From assembly GCA_025061735.1 (NCBI GenBank), contig JANXAU010000007.1:1-41407 (forward strand): a stretch of 41,407 nucleotides of DNA. The letters run 5' to 3'. The notes under the pieces were generated by a model. The model was not told the DNA's origin. It ran no database searches and saw only the letters and a program-made list of their open reading frames with translations. Source of the DNA: Candidatus Bipolaricaulota bacterium (GTDB taxonomy: Bacteria; Bipolaricaulota; Bipolaricaulia; RBG-16-55-9; DRXL01). A program made the position numbers and the translations under genes. Positions 4,183 through 39,396 of the stretch are shown one piece after another; positions within the stretch are counted from its first letter, which is position 1; each line of letters opens with the position of its first letter.

Positions 4183-4211
4183 TTGACAATTCGTTTCTCT
4201 TTTGATAAAGT
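4183..4211 (+). promoter_or_regulatory. Strong sigma70-type promoter of the RHH-MshEN gene
   Basis: A perfect -35 TTGACA (4183-4188), 17-base spacer and TAAAGT (4206-4211). The leader is about 27 bases and ends in AAGGAGG (4230-4236), eight bases before the ATG at 4245. It is the best -35 in the window. Confidence 0.75.
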
Positions 4212-4244
4212 TTCTTCTAAGCTCTTGTTAAGGAGGGATCCACG

Positions 4245-4568
4245 ATGCAGCTGACGATCTATTACACCAAGGACGATCTCTATCTGATCAAGCAGATTGA
4301 TGCCAAGGCCGAGCGCGAGCGCCGCAGCAAAAGCTCGGTCATCTTATCGATTCTGGAAGAGTACTTCGAGCGCAACAAGCGTTTGGGGGAGATCTTGGTC
4401 GATCTGGGCAAGATCAGCGAGGAGAAGCTGCAACAGGCGCTGGAGCTGCAAAAGAAGGAGGGCGGCACCCGCACGCTAGGACAGATCTTGCTCTCCAAGC
4501 GCTGGATCACCGAGCACGACCTCGAACGCGCGCTCCTGTTGCAAGACAAATCGAGCCATAAGAAATGA
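4245..4568 (+). CDS. Ribbon-helix-helix DNA-binding fold fused to MshEN-like domain
   Basis: A 107-residue protein in two parts. Residues 1-45 have the CopG/ribbon-helix-helix layout: a short beta strand (LTIYYT), helix A (DDLYLIKQIDAKAERERR) and, after KSS, helix B (VILSILEEYFE). Residues 46-100 match the GspE/MshE N-terminal (MshEN) motif: RLGEILVDLGKISEEKLQQ, then ALELQ, then a second copy LGQILLSKRWITEHDLERAL. In Vibrio MshE this motif binds cyclic-di-GMP; one normally aliphatic position after the glycine is lysine here. Operator binding and ligand binding are inferences. It has the strongest promoter in the window and lies 28 bases before the gene for a secreted protein, which it may control. 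The alternative is a regulator that senses a protein partner. Confidence 0.75.
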   Translation: MQLTIYYTKDDLYLIKQIDAKAERERRSKSSVILSILEEYFERNKRLGEILVDLGKISEEKLQQALELQKKEGGTRTLGQILLSKRWITEHDLERALLLQDKSSHKK

Positions 4569-4596
4569 AATCAAAATTAAGTGAAGGAGGAACCCG

Positions 4597-5634
4597 ATGC
4601 GCGCGTCGGCCCGTCTTGTGGGGATAGGGACGCTCGCGCTGGCGCTCTGCTTTGTAGAGACGCGCGCCCTGCTGATCTCTAACATCGAGTTCGATCTGGC
4701 CCTGCCGCGCGGTGCCACCGAGACGTTTGCGTTCCAGCTCATCAACAACGAGACCGATCCGTTAGAGATTCAGATCAGTCTAGCCGATTGGGATCGCGAT
4801 CTCTACGGAGAGAATCGCTTCTATCCCCCGGGGACGCTGCCGCGCTCGGCGGCCAGCTGGCTGAGCGTCAGCCCCCTGAGATTCGAACTCGCCCGCAACG
4901 AGCAGCGAGAGGTCAAGTTCTCGCTCAGGGTCCCGCGCGACATCGAAGGGACCTATTGGGCAGCGATCTTGGTAGAGGCCAGCCCCAAGCAAGCCCAGCC
5001 CCACCCCGGCACCACGGTCGTCGTGCGCCGACGCTTCGCCGTCAAGATCTTCGAGACGCCGCCGGGGACGGGCCGGCGCGACGGACGCATCACCCTGCTC
5101 GACGTGCGGGGATTGAACCCCCCTAACGTCTGGCTGGAGTTTGAAAACCGCGGAACGATTCACACCCCACGAGTGACCGGGCGCGTCGAGATCCGCGACG
5201 AGAAGGGCGCTCTGGTGGAGAAGATCGAAGTTGACAGCTTCCCCACGCTCCCGGGAGCCAAGCGCCAACTGAAAGCGACCAGCTCTCGCAAGAAGGGAGA
5301 TCTTCTCCCTCCGGGGCGCTACGCCGTCCTGGCGATCTTGGACTATGGGGGGGAATCGCTCGCGGGGGGACAGTATATCCTGCGCATCTTGCCCTTAAGA
5401 TTAGTCCCTCTCGGCGAAGCCAAAGCCCCTCCCCAAGACCTCGACAGAGACGGACTCTACGAAGACACCAACGCCGATGGGGCGCTCTCGCTGGACGATG
5501 CCGCGCTCTTAGGCCTACATCTAGAGAAGCCCGCCGTGCAAGAGAACGCCCGCGCCTTCGACTTCGACAACGACGGCGACGCCGATCTGGACGACGTCCT
5601 AACGCTGAAAAAGATGGCCGAAGAGTCCAGATAA
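4597..5634 (+). CDS. Secreted protein with Ig-like domains and C-terminal dockerin-like pair
   Basis: 345 residues. The N-terminal signal peptide (LVGIGTLALALCFVETRA) is followed by a beta-rich region. It resembles DUF916/pilus-chaperone-like Ig folds (FAFQLINNETDPLEIQISL; LRFELARNEQREVKFSLRV) and a second Ig-like unit near 185-270. The last ~60 residues carry two Ca-binding loops, DLDRDGLYEDTNADGALSLD and DFDNDGDADLDD, each followed by a helix, which is the type I dockerin layout. Dockerins bind cohesins; none is visible here. GAAGGAGG lies six bases before the ATG. It is probably co-transcribed with the upstream RHH-MshEN gene. A cell-surface or extracellular structural role is inferred. 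Confidence 0.75.
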   Translation: MRASARLVGIGTLALALCFVETRALLISNIEFDLALPRGATETFAFQLINNETDPLEIQISLADWDRDLYGENRFYPPGTLPRSAASWLSVSPLRFELARNEQREVKFSLRVPRDIEGTYWAAILVEASPKQAQPHPGTTVVVRRRFAVKIFETPPGTGRRDGRITLLDVRGLNPPNVWLEFENRGTIHTPRVTGRVEIRDEKGALVEKIEVDSFPTLPGAKRQLKATSSRKKGDLLPPGRYAVLAILDYGGESLAGGQYILRILPLRLVPLGEAKAPPQDLDRDGLYEDTNADGALSLDDAALLGLHLEKPAVQENARAFDFDNDGDADLDDVLTLKKMAEESR

Positions 5635-6191: not shown

Positions 6192-6220
6192 TTGGCCAAG
6201 CGCTTCAGAGCGCTTAAAAT
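6192..6220 (+). promoter_or_regulatory. Probable promoter of the large surface-protein gene
   Basis: TTGGCC (6192-6197), 17 bases, TAAAAT (6215-6220), then 13 bases to the ATG at 6234. The TTG that the ORF track uses as a start codon coincides with this -35 box, which argues for the ATG at 6234. Confidence 0.5.
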
Positions 6221-6233
6221 CCGTTCTGTTGCC

Positions 6234-9200
6234 ATGGTGCGCCTGGTGGTTGGCTGGGTCTTGGGGGTGAGCCTGTGGGGAGCGACGGCCCTGGCTCAAA
6301 TCGCGCTGACGGCTCCTCCGGCCCCTCCTCCCGTCGGCCCCTCCCAAGCGATCACCCTCGTCTTCGATCTGAAGAACAACTCCCAAACGAGAGAGATCTT
6401 TGACTTCTCTCTAGAGCTTCCCGAAGGCGTCGAATCGCTCTCGCCTCCAGACCCGCTAGAGCTAGCCCCCGGCGAGAGCGAAAAAGTCTTTGTCAGCGTG
6501 GTGATCACCGCGCGCGCCCGCGCCGGAGCGCAGACCGTTACGCTCCGCGCGCGTGGACGCACCAATCCCGCCCTCACGGCGCACGCGAGCGTGACGATCA
6601 CCGTCAAAGAGACTCCCGGCTTGCAAGTCCTCGCCCCGCCAGAGACGAGCGTCGAGCCGGGCAGCGCCCTCTTAGTGCGATTCACCGTGCGCAACACGGG
6701 GAACGCTCCCGATCGCATTGAACTCTCTGTCTCTGCGCGCGCGGGATTCTCTGTGCGGCTCTCGATCTTCCGGCGGCTCGATCTGGGGCCAGGGGAGGCG
6801 CGCGAAGTCCCCGTAGAGGTCGTCATCCCCAAAGAAGCCCCTCCCGGGCGCGAGCGCATCTTATTAAAAGCCGTCTCGCAGCGCTTTGAGAACCTCTCGG
6901 CCGAAGCCACAGCGATTCTCTCTATCTTGCCGCCGCTGCCCCAGCACGTGAGCGGCTCGCTCTTTTTGACCGTTCCGGCGCGCGTGGAGTTCCGCGCGGA
7001 AGGCCAGACGGGCGCGCCCGTCAACGCCTTTGCCCAGATTCAGAGCCTCGGCGGAGTCCTCCTCCCCGATACCCCCGCCTTCCATCTAGACGTGGGCGGC
7101 TCGCTGACCCTCTCCAACAGCTCTGGAGCGACGATCACCGTCACGGTCTCCGACGGCCGCCCGCCCGTGACGATCCTCAACGGCACCAGCGCGTCACTGC
7201 CCTTCTCTTCCTCGGGGATCTATCTCGTCACGGTGAGCGGCGGGGGATTGATCTCTACAACGATGATCGTCACCGTGCACGATCTGATCTTCCGGCAGCG
7301 GCTTTACGGGGCGGGGCCGATAGACCGAGAGGGCGAACTCTCCTTCTTGCTCGATCTGCAGAATCTCTTTGGGCTCAACGCGATCTTCTTCGGGTTGAAG
7401 ACCAAGCCGTGGGAGTGGGCGCTGGGGGATCTGCGCCGGCCGTTTGGGGAGCTGGCCTCTTTAACGGGTCGCGGCGGCGGGCTGCTCTGGAGGCCGGGTC
7501 TCTTCGAGACAAAGATAGTGCTGGGGGCCGTCGCCAGCTTGAGACGGCTGACCGAAGCTGAGCTTCTCCTCCCTGACGATCTGGGAGCACTTCCCTCTTC
7601 GTTGGCGGTTCGGCTTGGCCAACCGGTGCGCTTCCGCAACGTTGGGCTGCTGCCCAAGAGCGTGACGATTCCCGGCGCGAGCACGCAGATCCTGCCCCCG
7701 GGAGGGTCTTTGGTGCACATCTTCAGCAGCGTGGGACCGGTGCTCGTTGGCATTGACACCGCCACGGTGACTTTTATTGTCTTAGTAGGGTCTTTCTGTG
7801 AAGCTCCCTTTCTCTTCTGCGCGGCGCTGGCGGGGGAGACGACGCCGATCGCGGGCTTGAGGTGGGGCACGACGGGGCTGTTGGGAGTCACGGGCGGCTT
7901 CAGCCCTTCTTGGACAGCGACAACGCTGAGTCGGCTCGCTTGGGAGACCCCCGAGGGCAGCGCGACGACCGTTGAAGGCGGGCTGAGCTTTCTCAACGGC
8001 GCTTTTTCAGACTCTGCACTGCACGTGGGATCGGAAGTGCGCTTAGGGGATCTTACGATTCTTGCGCAGGTGCTGCGCGCCGGCCCGGACTTCGTCGGCG
8101 ACCGCCGCGACGAGCAGAGCTTGCGGGTCTTTCAGACGTTCAGCGGCGCGTTCTTCTCGTTCAGCAGCGGCATAGAGCGCTGGCGCAACAACGTCGACAA
8201 CAATCCCCTGCAACAGACGCTCTTCGATCAGAACCTCCGCGCGACTTTGCTCTTAAAGCTCTCGGAAGCTTGGCCCCAGTTGCGGCTCTCGGCGTCTTAT
8301 CGGCGGCGGGAGTCCAGCGGCCCTGGGCCTCTGATCCATCTCTCGGAGTTGGTCTTGTCGCTGCGCCTCACCCAACCCCTCGGACGCCACAGCGCCCTCT
8401 CGTTCTTCACAGATCAAGCCTTGAACAACAATTTTGCGCTGGGAATCAACACGGGCTTTAGCACCGTGGGCTTAGACTTCTCGATCTATTTTAACGAACT
8501 GAAGGCCTCTCTCAGACTGGAACGGCGCACGCAGGTTGACCTAGATACGGCCATCGTCTTGAGCCAGAGCATCTTAGCTGCTGCCGGGCTAGAGTGGCGT
8601 TCGGCTCCCTTCGCGTTGCGCTTCGGGTGGCTCAGTTCACCCGATCGCTTAGACCTGAGCGTTGGCTTAGAAGCCACGCTGGGGATCGTCTTGCTCTCGT
8701 TCTTCGCGCGCACGAGCCTGCTCAGCCCCAGCGGCCTGGAGTTCGACTTCGCCCTAGGCGTGACATTTAATTTCATCGCTCCGATTCCGTTTATTGTCAC
8801 AAATGGACGCGTCGAAGGATTTCTCTTCGTAGATGCCAACGGCAACGGACAACGCGACCCGAACGAGACCGGCATCAAGAATATTATTCTGAGTCTGAAC
8901 AACGAGAAAGCCCGCACCGACGAGACGGGCTTCTATCGCTTCCCTCCGATGCCGCCGGGGAGCTATAGGCTCACGATAGAGAAGCTGCCCTTGGGGGTAG
9001 CAACGGCCCTGCCGTTGCCCCTCGAGATCGTGCTGCGCGCAGGCCAGACGCTCCAGATCGAAATCCCCCTGGTCAGGGTCTCCGTCATCGAAGGGATCGT
9101 CTTTCATGACCTCAACCGCAATAGCAGACTCGACTCCGAGGAGCGGGGCCTGGCGCGCGTCCGAGTCTTCTTAACAGATAGTGCTGGTCAGACGAAAGAT

Positions 9201-9659
9201 CAGTTCACGGACTCCGAGGGGCGCTTCGCCTTCAGCGAGCTGCCCCCCGGCGATTATCTGCTCGCGCTCGATGGACGTACCCTCCCGGAGAACTTCGCCC
9301 TCACGACGCCCGCAGAAGTCCAAGTCACGCTCCGCACCCAAGAGCGCGTGACGGTCGCCTTCGGAGCGGCAGAGAGACCCCGAGCCGTGAAGTTCCCGCC
9401 CGTAGCAGAGTTTATGTTCACGCCCACCAGCCCCAAAGCCGGCGAGAGAGTTCGTTTCGACGCTTCGGAGTCGTTCGATCCCGATGGCCAGATCGTCAAG
9501 TACGAGTGGGACTTCGAGAGCGACGGGAAGATAGACGCGCAGGGCGTGCAGGCCGAGCACGTCTTCTCCCAAGCGGGAGATTATACGGTGACGCTCACCG
9601 TGACCGACAACGACGGGGAGCAGAGCACCGCCCGCAAGAGAGTCACGGTCGGCCCCTGA
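6234..9659 (+). CDS. Large exported surface protein: Ig-like repeats, beta-barrel-like core, SdrD-B-like and PKD domains
   Basis: 1,141 residues from the ATG at 6234. A signal peptide (MVRLVVGWVLGVSLWGATAL) ends in ALAQ. Two NEW3/CARDB-like Ig domains follow (to about residue 225), each with the phrase LAPGESEKVFV or LGPGEAREVPV. A cupredoxin-like module appears in the middle (VRFRNVGLLPKSVTIPG...LPPGGSLVHIFSS). Residues ~540-855 alternate polar and hydrophobic residues in strand-length runs, as in an outer-membrane beta-barrel. Two SdrD-B-like prealbumin-fold repeats follow (DANGNGQRDPNETGI; DLNRNSRLDSEERGL), then a C-terminal PKD domain (VKYEWDFESDGKID). It overlaps the convergent pgsA by 17 bases. 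Outer-membrane anchoring is inferred from strand pattern only. Confidence 0.75.
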   Translation: MVRLVVGWVLGVSLWGATALAQIALTAPPAPPPVGPSQAITLVFDLKNNSQTREIFDFSLELPEGVESLSPPDPLELAPGESEKVFVSVVITARARAGAQTVTLRARGRTNPALTAHASVTITVKETPGLQVLAPPETSVEPGSALLVRFTVRNTGNAPDRIELSVSARAGFSVRLSIFRRLDLGPGEAREVPVEVVIPKEAPPGRERILLKAVSQRFENLSAEATAILSILPPLPQHVSGSLFLTVPARVEFRAEGQTGAPVNAFAQIQSLGGVLLPDTPAFHLDVGGSLTLSNSSGATITVTVSDGRPPVTILNGTSASLPFSSSGIYLVTVSGGGLISTTMIVTVHDLIFRQRLYGAGPIDREGELSFLLDLQNLFGLNAIFFGLKTKPWEWALGDLRRPFGELASLTGRGGGLLWRPGLFETKIVLGAVASLRRLTEAELLLPDDLGALPSSLAVRLGQPVRFRNVGLLPKSVTIPGASTQILPPGGSLVHIFSSVGPVLVGIDTATVTFIVLVGSFCEAPFLFCAALAGETTPIAGLRWGTTGLLGVTGGFSPSWTATTLSRLAWETPEGSATTVEGGLSFLNGAFSDSALHVGSEVRLGDLTILAQVLRAGPDFVGDRRDEQSLRVFQTFSGAFFSFSSGIERWRNNVDNNPLQQTLFDQNLRATLLLKLSEAWPQLRLSASYRRRESSGPGPLIHLSELVLSLRLTQPLGRHSALSFFTDQALNNNFALGINTGFSTVGLDFSIYFNELKASLRLERRTQVDLDTAIVLSQSILAAAGLEWRSAPFALRFGWLSSPDRLDLSVGLEATLGIVLLSFFARTSLLSPSGLEFDFALGVTFNFIAPIPFIVTNGRVEGFLFVDANGNGQRDPNETGIKNIILSLNNEKARTDETGFYRFPPMPPGSYRLTIEKLPLGVATALPLPLEIVLRAGQTLQIEIPLVRVSVIEGIVFHDLNRNSRLDSEERGLARVRVFLTDSAGQTKDQFTDSEGRFAFSELPPGDYLLALDGRTLPENFALTTPAEVQVTLRTQERVTVAFGAAERPRAVKFPPVAEFMFTPTSPKAGERVRFDASESFDPDGQIVKYEWDFESDGKIDAQGVQAEHVFSQAGDYTVTLTVTDNDGEQSTARKRVTVGP

Positions 9660-13316: not shown

Positions 13317-13345
13317 TTGACCCCGACTCTCTCTTCTGCTATAAT
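13317..13345 (+). promoter_or_regulatory. Strong promoter of carAB
   Basis: TTGACC (13317-13322), 17 bases, perfect TATAAT (13340-13345). Unlike the leaderless promoters nearby, it is followed by a ~124-base leader before carA. Confidence 0.75.
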
Positions 13346-37503: not shown

Positions 37504-39396
37504 TCAGCGCATGAGCAAGACCAAGATTACGTCCTCACCCTGGTCAAGCGCTTGGAGGGCCTTTCCAACAATAGCCCCCTCGCACCGGTTGAGACTCTCA
37601 CAGCGCATGGCATACCCCATCTTGGACGCGCTCGTCAGCAAGTCCCCAGGACGGATCGGCCCGCCCTCGGTCGTCGCCTTCACAGGGACCCGCCCTAACA
37701 ACGCCAGCAGCGCTCGCCCTTCGGGCTGCCCCCGCGCCCCCAAGATCACCCCCGGCACCGAGGAGACCACGCCCGCCACGAAGGTGCTATAAGGGCCACG
37801 CGCCTTGCGATAGTGCCCCGGACGGGAGGGGTCCAGCTCGAGGACGTCGCCGGGGGAGACCTCTTCGGAGACGCGCACGTACTCGGCCACGTCAGCCCCG
37901 CCCGCGTTGAAGCTCCCATCGGCACAGACGTTCCCCGTCGCGCGCTCCACCCGAAAGAGCGCCCCTGTGTTGCCACACGACAGCGGGTTTCCATACGTGA
38001 TCGTCACGCTGAACCCCGTCGCCGTGAGCGCGTTCACTTGGACCCGGATGTTGTTGGCAGCGTCAAGGAAGGTTTCGCCGGGCAGCCAGCGGGCACCCGC
38101 GTCGTCGGGATCGCAGTTGGAATCGGCTCCATCGCAGTCGCCATCCAAGTCGCCGTCGGCATCTACAACCCAAGCGTCGCTGGAGCGCGCAGCATCCACG
38201 TGATGAATGATGATCGCCTCGCCGGGGAGGTTGCCGTCATAGCCCGTCAACCGTCGCGCTTCGACGGTGTAGAACTGCGACGAATTGGGGATGGGAATCC
38301 GGGCCATCAGATAGCTAGTGCCGGAGAGGGGCTGATGCAAGCGCTCGATCTCGATCGTCGTGACGGTGTTGAGCGCGGGCACGAAGATTCTGGAACTGGG
38401 AATCCAAGGGGCCAGAACCCCCAGATGGTACGAGATCGTGCCTTGGCCGACGCATCCGTAGGTCGGATGATAGGGGGGACAGTTTCCCCACAGATCGCTC
38501 ATGACGTCCCAGCGAGAGTCATAAGTTGCCCCATAGGGGCCTGACGAGTGAGGCCAGCCCCAGCCGTGCCCCATCTCATGCGCGAGGACGCCCTGATTGT
38601 TGTAGCCCCACGGCGGCTCCCACGTGACTCGATAATTTTTGGTCACGCCGTCGAGCGTGGCGGTGCGGCTGCCGCCCCAGGCGCAGTTGCACGGGCCTTC
38701 CAACGTCTCATTGAACATGAGATTGATCCCGACGAAGTTGGGAAAATAGACATCGGCGTCGTGGATCGCGGTGCAGTCGTTGAAGAGTGCCGTGAGATTG
38801 ATGCTGGTGCCGGTCATGTAGTGCGAGCGGGGGTGGGGAAGGGTCTTCCAATTGCGGGAGGCGCTGCCCGTGAGATTGATGGTGTTATACGAGACTTGGC
38901 GCCAGTAGTGATCCAACTGGGGATACGCATTCCCCATCAAGCCTTCGAAGTACGACAACGGTTGGGGTTCGGCAGGGATGTCTGAGAACTTACAGAGCAG
39001 GTTGACCCAAGGTTGAGCCCCAGTCAGTTGGGGTTCGGGCTGTCCGATCTGTTCTAAGGCGATGCTCTGGACGCGAAGGGGGCCAGGGGCGGCAGCGGGG
39101 AGGGCATCGGTGGTGATCTTGACGCGTTGGCGGTTGAGCGCCAAGACGCCTCCGAAGGGCACAAAGAGCTTTGGATCTATCAAGAGCCGATAAGAGTCCC
39201 CTTGGTCGGTGTCGAGCCAGTACTGCTCGCCTTGGAGGCCCGATCCCGGCGGCCCGTCGTACCAGAGAATATGAAACCAACCGACAACGACGTTGGGCTG
39301 GGCGGTAGCTGGACGCAGCGCCATCCACCAGGGGGCGAGCATACTACAGACGAGCAGAATTGCAAGCCAGCGGCTTAGACGAAGATAGCGTCTCAC
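37504..39396 (-). CDS. Secreted metzincin-type metalloprotease
   Basis: 630 residues. A signal peptide (WLAILLVCSMLAPWWMALRP, ending ATAQ) leads into an exported protein. The zinc motif HEMGHGWGWPH (~residue 273) is a full metzincin HEXXHXXGXXH. Calcium-type aspartate-rich loops (DADGDLDGDCDGADSNCDPD) occur near residue 430. The last ~130 residues are a separate module (ADVAEYVRVSEEVSPGDVLE; VPVKATTEGGPIRPGDLLTS) found at the ends of various large bacterial surface and tail-like proteins. The start is GTG, with AAGGAGG five bases upstream. Substrate unknown. Confidence 0.82.
   Translation of the reverse strand: MRRYLRLSRWLAILLVCSMLAPWWMALRPATAQPNVVVGWFHILWYDGPPGSGLQGEQYWLDTDQGDSYRLLIDPKLFVPFGGVLALNRQRVKITTDALPAAAPGPLRVQSIALEQIGQPEPQLTGAQPWVNLLCKFSDIPAEPQPLSYFEGLMGNAYPQLDHYWRQVSYNTINLTGSASRNWKTLPHPRSHYMTGTSINLTALFNDCTAIHDADVYFPNFVGINLMFNETLEGPCNCAWGGSRTATLDGVTKNYRVTWEPPWGYNNQGVLAHEMGHGWGWPHSSGPYGATYDSRWDVMSDLWGNCPPYHPTYGCVGQGTISYHLGVLAPWIPSSRIFVPALNTVTTIEIERLHQPLSGTSYLMARIPIPNSSQFYTVEARRLTGYDGNLPGEAIIIHHVDAARSSDAWVVDADGDLDGDCDGADSNCDPDDAGARWLPGETFLDAANNIRVQVNALTATGFSVTITYGNPLSCGNTGALFRVERATGNVCADGSFNAGGADVAEYVRVSEEVSPGDVLELDPSRPGHYRKARGPYSTFVAGVVSSVPGVILGARGQPEGRALLALLGRVPVKATTEGGPIRPGDLLTSASKMGYAMRCESLNRCEGAIVGKALQALDQGEDVILVLLMR

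Follow-up and report, generated by a model that had tools for sequence, protein, structure and literature searches.

The gene at positions 4245-4568 of the window (the whole 41,407-nucleotide stretch of DNA analysed, contig C22 of a 1.64-Mb Candidatus Bipolaricaulota genome that is 93% complete; element counts for this genome are lower bounds) encodes a 107-residue protein in which a ribbon-helix-helix (RHH) domain is fused to a predicted MshEN cyclic di-GMP (c-di-GMP) sensor domain. This protein, RHH-MshEN, is likely to be a one-component c-di-GMP transcription regulator of surface genes, and probably a little-studied switch for surface attachment. The domains, their conservation, the genomic linkage, the riboswitches and the overlap of riboswitches with terminators are established by computation. 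The original prediction placed the two domains in this order, and both are borne out by the predicted structure (AlphaFold) and by the NCBIfam profile NF053729. The gene and its parts are as follows:

4245..4568, + strand: RHH-MshEN gene, 107 amino acids, ATG start
4245..4382, + strand: ribbon-helix-helix domain, residues 1-46 (AlphaFold, superposition, Foldseek, conservation)
4371..4553, + strand: predicted MshEN_N four-helix c-di-GMP site, residues 43-103 (NF053729; 5htl, 8pdk)
4380..4451, + strand: MshEN motif I, R46-Q69, with all six key residues present
4473..4544, + strand: MshEN motif II, T77-Q100, with T at the Arg position, R86 at the Gly position and a spacer of 7 residues

The open reading frame is a real coding gene under strong purifying selection, with ratios of nonsynonymous to synonymous substitution (dN/dS) of 0.042 and 0.096 against G001 and G002, two genomes congeneric with the window's own. 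In the AlphaFold model, which was built on 43 relatives and has a mean pLDDT (the program's per-residue confidence score) of 89, the N-terminal half consists of the strand MQLTIYY followed by helices at residues 9-24 and 29-42. Residues 1-46 superpose on CopG bound to DNA (1ea4) with Z 4.0 and a root-mean-square deviation (rmsd) of 1.2 over 43 residues, at a Foldseek probability of 0.90, and also on Arc (Z 3.9), AmrZ and CdbA; the Z is low because the domain has only 45 residues, as for any domain of this size. RHH entries dominate the list of structure matches for this half, and the family sequence, QxTxYY with RxSxS opening helix 2, is of the RHH type; T4, Y6, D11, R26, S28, S30 and E38 are invariant throughout the family. 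The RHH_1 profile gives E=0.057 on the window protein (13.8 bits, cut-off 20.5) and matches 25 of the 43 relatives at E up to 0.1, the best at 4e-5. By predicted fold this half is a CopG/Arc-like RHH domain, which would bind DNA sequence-specifically as a dimer; its strand is unpaired in the model of the monomer, as an intertwined dimer would predict.

One alternative is that the RHH domain is a dimerisation unit only and that the protein is a post-transcriptional c-di-GMP effector acting on the export or assembly of surface proteins, as might suit its secreted or surface-protein neighbours and the best-studied MshEN proteins, which act on secretion or pilus motors. This is very unlikely, given that the invariant T4, Y6 and RxSxS are the positions at which RHH proteins contact DNA (general knowledge; also PMC7156744) and that secretion genes do not lie beside the RHH-MshEN gene in the loci examined. 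A role as a pilus or secretion accessory, which if general among homologues was to refute the original prediction, was rejected as well: such genes are not beside the RHH-MshEN gene in these loci, and no homologue examined sits in a pilus or secretion operon. An antitoxin of a toxin-antitoxin pair was also considered and rejected, the neighbours being secreted proteins, none of them toxin-like.

The C-terminal half belongs with MshEN_N by both profile and fold. NF053729, a c-di-GMP motif profile related to MshE, scores 58.9 bits on the window protein (cut-off 38, E=3.1e-16), so that the motif is not a chance one, and it matches all 43 relatives; Pfam PF05157 (MshEN, 90 positions as against a 53-residue ligand site) found no match in the protein or the genome. 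Compared with the PDB, the family profile matches PilF, PilB and MshE. Residues 40-103 superpose on the c-di-GMP complexes of MshE (5htl) and PilF-GSPII-B (8pdk) with Z 9.7, far above unrelated entries, and Foldseek gives an rmsd of about 1 A over 59 columns to such complexes. The two tandem motifs that had been predicted are both present; in the model they together form one MshEN_N domain with one ligand site, rather than two. Pfam matches to the fumarase C-terminal domain and to DUF4388 overlap this helical region below cut-off and were taken as chance or fold resemblance.

According to PMC5013675, the residues that matter in MshE are R9, L10, G11, L25, L29 and Q32 in the first motif and R38, L39, G40, L54, L58 and Q61 in the second. 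Their counterparts here are R46, L47, G48, L62, L66 and Q69, then T77, L78, G79, L93, L97 and Q100, so that 11 of the 12 ligand-contact positions are identical and the exception is T77 at the motif II arginine. Motif I fits the published 24-residue pattern save for K56, which had been singled out as the doubtful residue; lysine stands at this position in 10 of the 43 relatives and in PilF GSPII-C, which binds, and the real doubt lies with T77. In motif II the spacer has 7 residues instead of 5 and R86 stands at the Gly position, with L78, G79, L93, L97 and Q100 in place. The first position of this motif varies within the family (L in 14, P in 8, K in 8, R in 7 and T in 4 of 43); residue 76 is R or K in every relative that has that position, and R76 may or may not compensate for the missing arginine. 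PilF GSPII-B binds c-di-GMP at 6 nM with K and L (L196) at its two arginine positions, and PilF GSPII-C, with proline (P335) at the second, has an affinity like that of MshE (PMC11731258). GSPII-C aligns with the same lysine and the same 7-residue spacer as the window protein.

T77, R86 and the longer motif II spacer, together with the finding that a serine at the motif II arginine position of an engineered PilF GSPII-A abolished binding (PMC12002112), could be read as meaning that the MshEN half is a structural or partner-binding module that has lost c-di-GMP binding, and the protein a plain RHH autorepressor. This is unlikely: wherever relatives have residues at these positions, G48 and Q69 are conserved, A96, L97 and Q100 are found in 43 of 43, PilF GSPII-C binds like MshE with the lysine, the spacer and a proline for Arg (PMC11731258), and the linkage to c-di-GMP riboswitches described below argues for a c-di-GMP role. 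Judged from sequence, c-di-GMP binding by the window protein is likely.

The RHH-MshEN protein was found in 46 of 60 related genomes and in 25 of their 31 genera, with as many as six matches in a single genome. When about 85,000 species were scanned, 126 relatives came up, of which the best 80 were kept; the scan's patterns were lineage-shaped, so that with this selection distant fusions could be missed. Among these best 80 of 126, almost all full-length RHH-MshEN proteins are labelled Bipolaricaulota or Acetothermia (Acetothermia and OP1 are former names of Candidatus Bipolaricaulota), one full-length protein lies outside the phylum, on an Aerophobetes-labelled contig (L142, 42% identity), and the remaining records read are MshEN ATPases or other proteins. 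Some close relatives carry labels of a few other phyla, which may reflect misnamed bins. One relative (L065:6192-6416, G022) has a natural in-frame deletion through which the two motifs are joined and only one MshEN half remains; a pair of subunits of this variant might complete one site. At L059, in G035, the gene directly downstream of RHH-MshEN encodes a 115-residue protein with MshEN-like motifs and no RHH.

The strongest evidence from gene context is the company that the gene keeps with riboswitches, which were seen first in the flanks of relatives and then confirmed with Rfam (c-di-GMP-I, RF01051/RF03167). Of 67 related loci, 42 have aptamers of this class immediately next to the RHH-MshEN gene and on its strand (both sides in 28, upstream only in 10, downstream only in 4), and in another 3 one lies farther upstream, ahead of the preceding secreted gene. 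In all, 89 aptamers share the gene's strand and 1 is on the opposite one; with only a few aptamers per genome, chance falls far short of explaining this linkage. By our own tally, 31 of 40 upstream aptamers have a 3' strand that also serves as 5' arm of an intrinsic terminator. Ligand should therefore block termination, and these riboswitches are accordingly predicted from sequence to be c-di-GMP ON switches. Downstream aptamers, by the same tally, overlap a terminator in 1 of 32 cases and mostly end shortly before a Shine-Dalgarno sequence, which suggests translational control. A crude signal-peptide test scores the downstream gene product as secreted in 35 of the 60 usable loci; these proteins are often large and adhesin-like, with SpaA, Ig-like, DUF7507 or lamin-tail domains. 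Several genomes have, ahead of the cassette, an S8 subtilase gene that carries an aptamer of its own. The surface-gene context of the original prediction has held up, and its c-di-GMP link has gained support from the riboswitches and from the cyclase and possible phosphodiesterase discussed below. Riboswitches flanking RHH-MshEN were observed across relatives L034-L140. Three c-di-GMP-I aptamers stand in series in L064, L088, L096, L102, L105, L121, L129 and L135, before the S8 subtilase gene (where that gene was read), the RHH-MshEN gene and the gene for a giant surface protein. In L060 (G023, contig C83) three RHH-MshEN paralogues surround a 1530-residue surface protein, each near a c-di-GMP-I aptamer.

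This linkage also bears on whether the protein is instead a nucleoid protein like CdbA, with broad DNA binding, through which c-di-GMP would tune chromosome packing and not one promoter. CdbA is itself an RHH protein that binds c-di-GMP (PMC7156744), and its structure is among the matches to the window protein. The latter, however, has a separate MshEN domain, and up to six matches per genome and the tight linkage to surface genes and riboswitches suggest local control; a nucleoid role is quite unlikely.

Around the gene itself, the following elements were found:

4183..4211, + strand: sigma-70-type promoter, TTGACA-17-TAAAGT with extended -10 TG (10/12 match in the promoter scan)
4230..4236, + strand: Shine-Dalgarno AAGGAGG of the RHH-MshEN gene (sequence)
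4584..4590, + strand: Shine-Dalgarno AAGGAGG of the next gene (sequence)
4597..5634, + strand: secreted 345-residue protein with a C-terminal dockerin-like Ca-binding repeat pair (Dockerin_1, E=2e-4)

The promoter exists and is a good one; the claim that none in the window is stronger does not hold, since sites at 13317 and 22671 score 11/12. It is conserved, spacer included, in the window's genome, G001 and G002, and the upstream gene in G001 is a different one; an RHH protein that regulates its own gene would be expected to have its operator close to this promoter. A gap of 28 bp without a terminator-like site in the scan separates the RHH-MshEN gene from that for the secreted protein, and the two thus probably form one operon. 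That protein, which has an orthologue at the same position in G001 and G002, is a likely target or partner of RHH-MshEN. It is secreted, as predicted; the dockerin assignment is borderline, at 21.9 bits just below the cut-off of 22.9. Two cohesin-domain matches lie close together on contig C59 of the same genome (L165, L166), and these proteins are possible partners of dockerin-bearing proteins such as this one. Just past an HU gene, at 6192-9659, is a further surface protein of the neighbourhood, secreted and of 1155 residues, with NEW3-like, SdrD-B and PKD domains. A secreted metallopeptidase-like protein of 630 residues with an HEMGH motif is encoded at 37504-39396 on the - strand.

The window's own genome has two c-di-GMP-I riboswitches. 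One, within L157:2114-5507 (contig C14), precedes genes for a DUF2334 protein and a family 2 glycosyltransferase, a possible c-di-GMP-controlled exopolysaccharide operon. The other, within L156:2078-2677 (contig C4), precedes the gene for a 169-residue secreted protein that matches nothing in Pfam, and after it come genes resembling those for phosphate transport; an orthologue of the secreted protein precedes RHH-MshEN in G001. In G001, L122 and L126 the RHH-MshEN gene comes after one for a small secreted protein, which itself follows a riboswitch. The window's genome has its orthologues of this riboswitch and secreted-protein gene on a different contig from RHH-MshEN, so that regulator and riboswitch unit seem to have become separated in this lineage. 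RHH-MshEN and the riboswitch-controlled secreted gene both have TTGACA-type promoters; a shared operator was sought by eye and no convincing common palindrome was seen. The genome's genes for making and probably breaking c-di-GMP are established by computation: one GGDEF protein (diguanylate cyclase), with the GGDEF and RxxD motifs intact, and one HD-GYP protein, by its sequence a possible phosphodiesterase. No EAL or PilZ protein was found in the 93% of the genome at hand, and the window protein is the single MshEN-motif protein found.

How such a regulator might work can be outlined; its binding to DNA and to the ligand, the allostery, the genes it targets and the sign of its control are all inferred. 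The RHH domain would dimerise and its two-stranded sheet enter the DNA major groove, and the MshEN_N bundle would hold one c-di-GMP per subunit through R46, L47, L66, Q69, L78, L97 and Q100. RHH helix 2 and R46 are only a few residues apart, so the ligand could alter the geometry of the dimer on DNA. The regulator would act, most likely, on its own promoter and on the co-transcribed surface-protein gene. In most relatives it would belong to a layered c-di-GMP surface cassette with c-di-GMP-I riboswitches in the same mRNA, namely a putative ON-type terminator switch ahead of the regulator and a second, apparently translational aptamer ahead of the surface-protein gene. Since the predicted upstream switch would let the regulator be made only when c-di-GMP is high, ligand probably meets the protein when it is made, and the regulator could reinforce surface-gene expression, or shut it down fast when c-di-GMP drops. 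The chances are about even that in Bipolaricaulota the cassette is a protein-RNA feed-forward gate for surface attachment, one ligand being read by the ON riboswitch, by RHH-MshEN and by the surface-gene riboswitch, and in some genomes by a third riboswitch on a secreted protease.

Several points weigh against RHH-MshEN as a c-di-GMP regulator of surface genes. No c-di-GMP-I riboswitch was found in the window at gathering or relaxed Rfam thresholds, so that the strongest context evidence comes from relatives; there, 22 of the 67 loci are without an aptamer in the vicinity and several without a surface gene downstream. T77 sits, by sequence alignment, where serine abolished PilF GSPII-A binding. 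The AlphaFold model is of a monomer only, and a conserved promoter is not a proven operator or binding site.

If the regulator is as proposed, the fusion would bring MshEN c-di-GMP sensing from motor ATPases and enzymes directly to promoters in a protein of 107 residues, and its linkage to riboswitches would give a naturally occurring example of RNA and protein sensors of one ligand stacked in one operon. The setting is a little-studied phylum whose c-di-GMP targets are mostly uncharted, and the circuit in the window's genome is small enough for complete testing.

The protein resembles MshE of Vibrio cholerae and PilF GSPII-B/-C of Thermus thermophilus in its two 24-residue motifs, its four-helix bundle and nearly all ligand contacts, but has no ATPase and no MshEN_C subdomain, and is fused to an RHH domain. 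The MshEN architectures described in the main text of Wang 2016 (PMC5013675) include receiver, HD-GYP, CheA, CheX, cyclase and kinase fusions, and no DNA-binding domain; a search of the open-access literature for MshEN with an RHH or other DNA-binding domain gave no such fusion, and an earlier description elsewhere is possible. CdbA of Myxococcus xanthus shares the RHH fold and the response to c-di-GMP, but has no MshEN, ligand and DNA competing for the same RHH surface (PMC7156744); having a separate MshEN domain, the window protein is not filed in the CdbA family. The CopG, Arc and AmrZ repressors are likewise small proteins with the strand-helix-helix DNA-binding fold, and none has an MshEN domain. 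In Clostridioides difficile, a pair of c-di-GMP riboswitches controls the surface protein CD2831 and its releasing protease PPEP-1 (PMC6366702), and some Bipolaricaulota cassettes similarly combine an S8 protease and a giant surface protein, in adjoining adhesin-like and protease genes under c-di-GMP riboswitches. In Bipolaricaulota, however, the protease family is different, the aptamers are all of class I, and the gene for a putative c-di-GMP-sensing regulator lies between.
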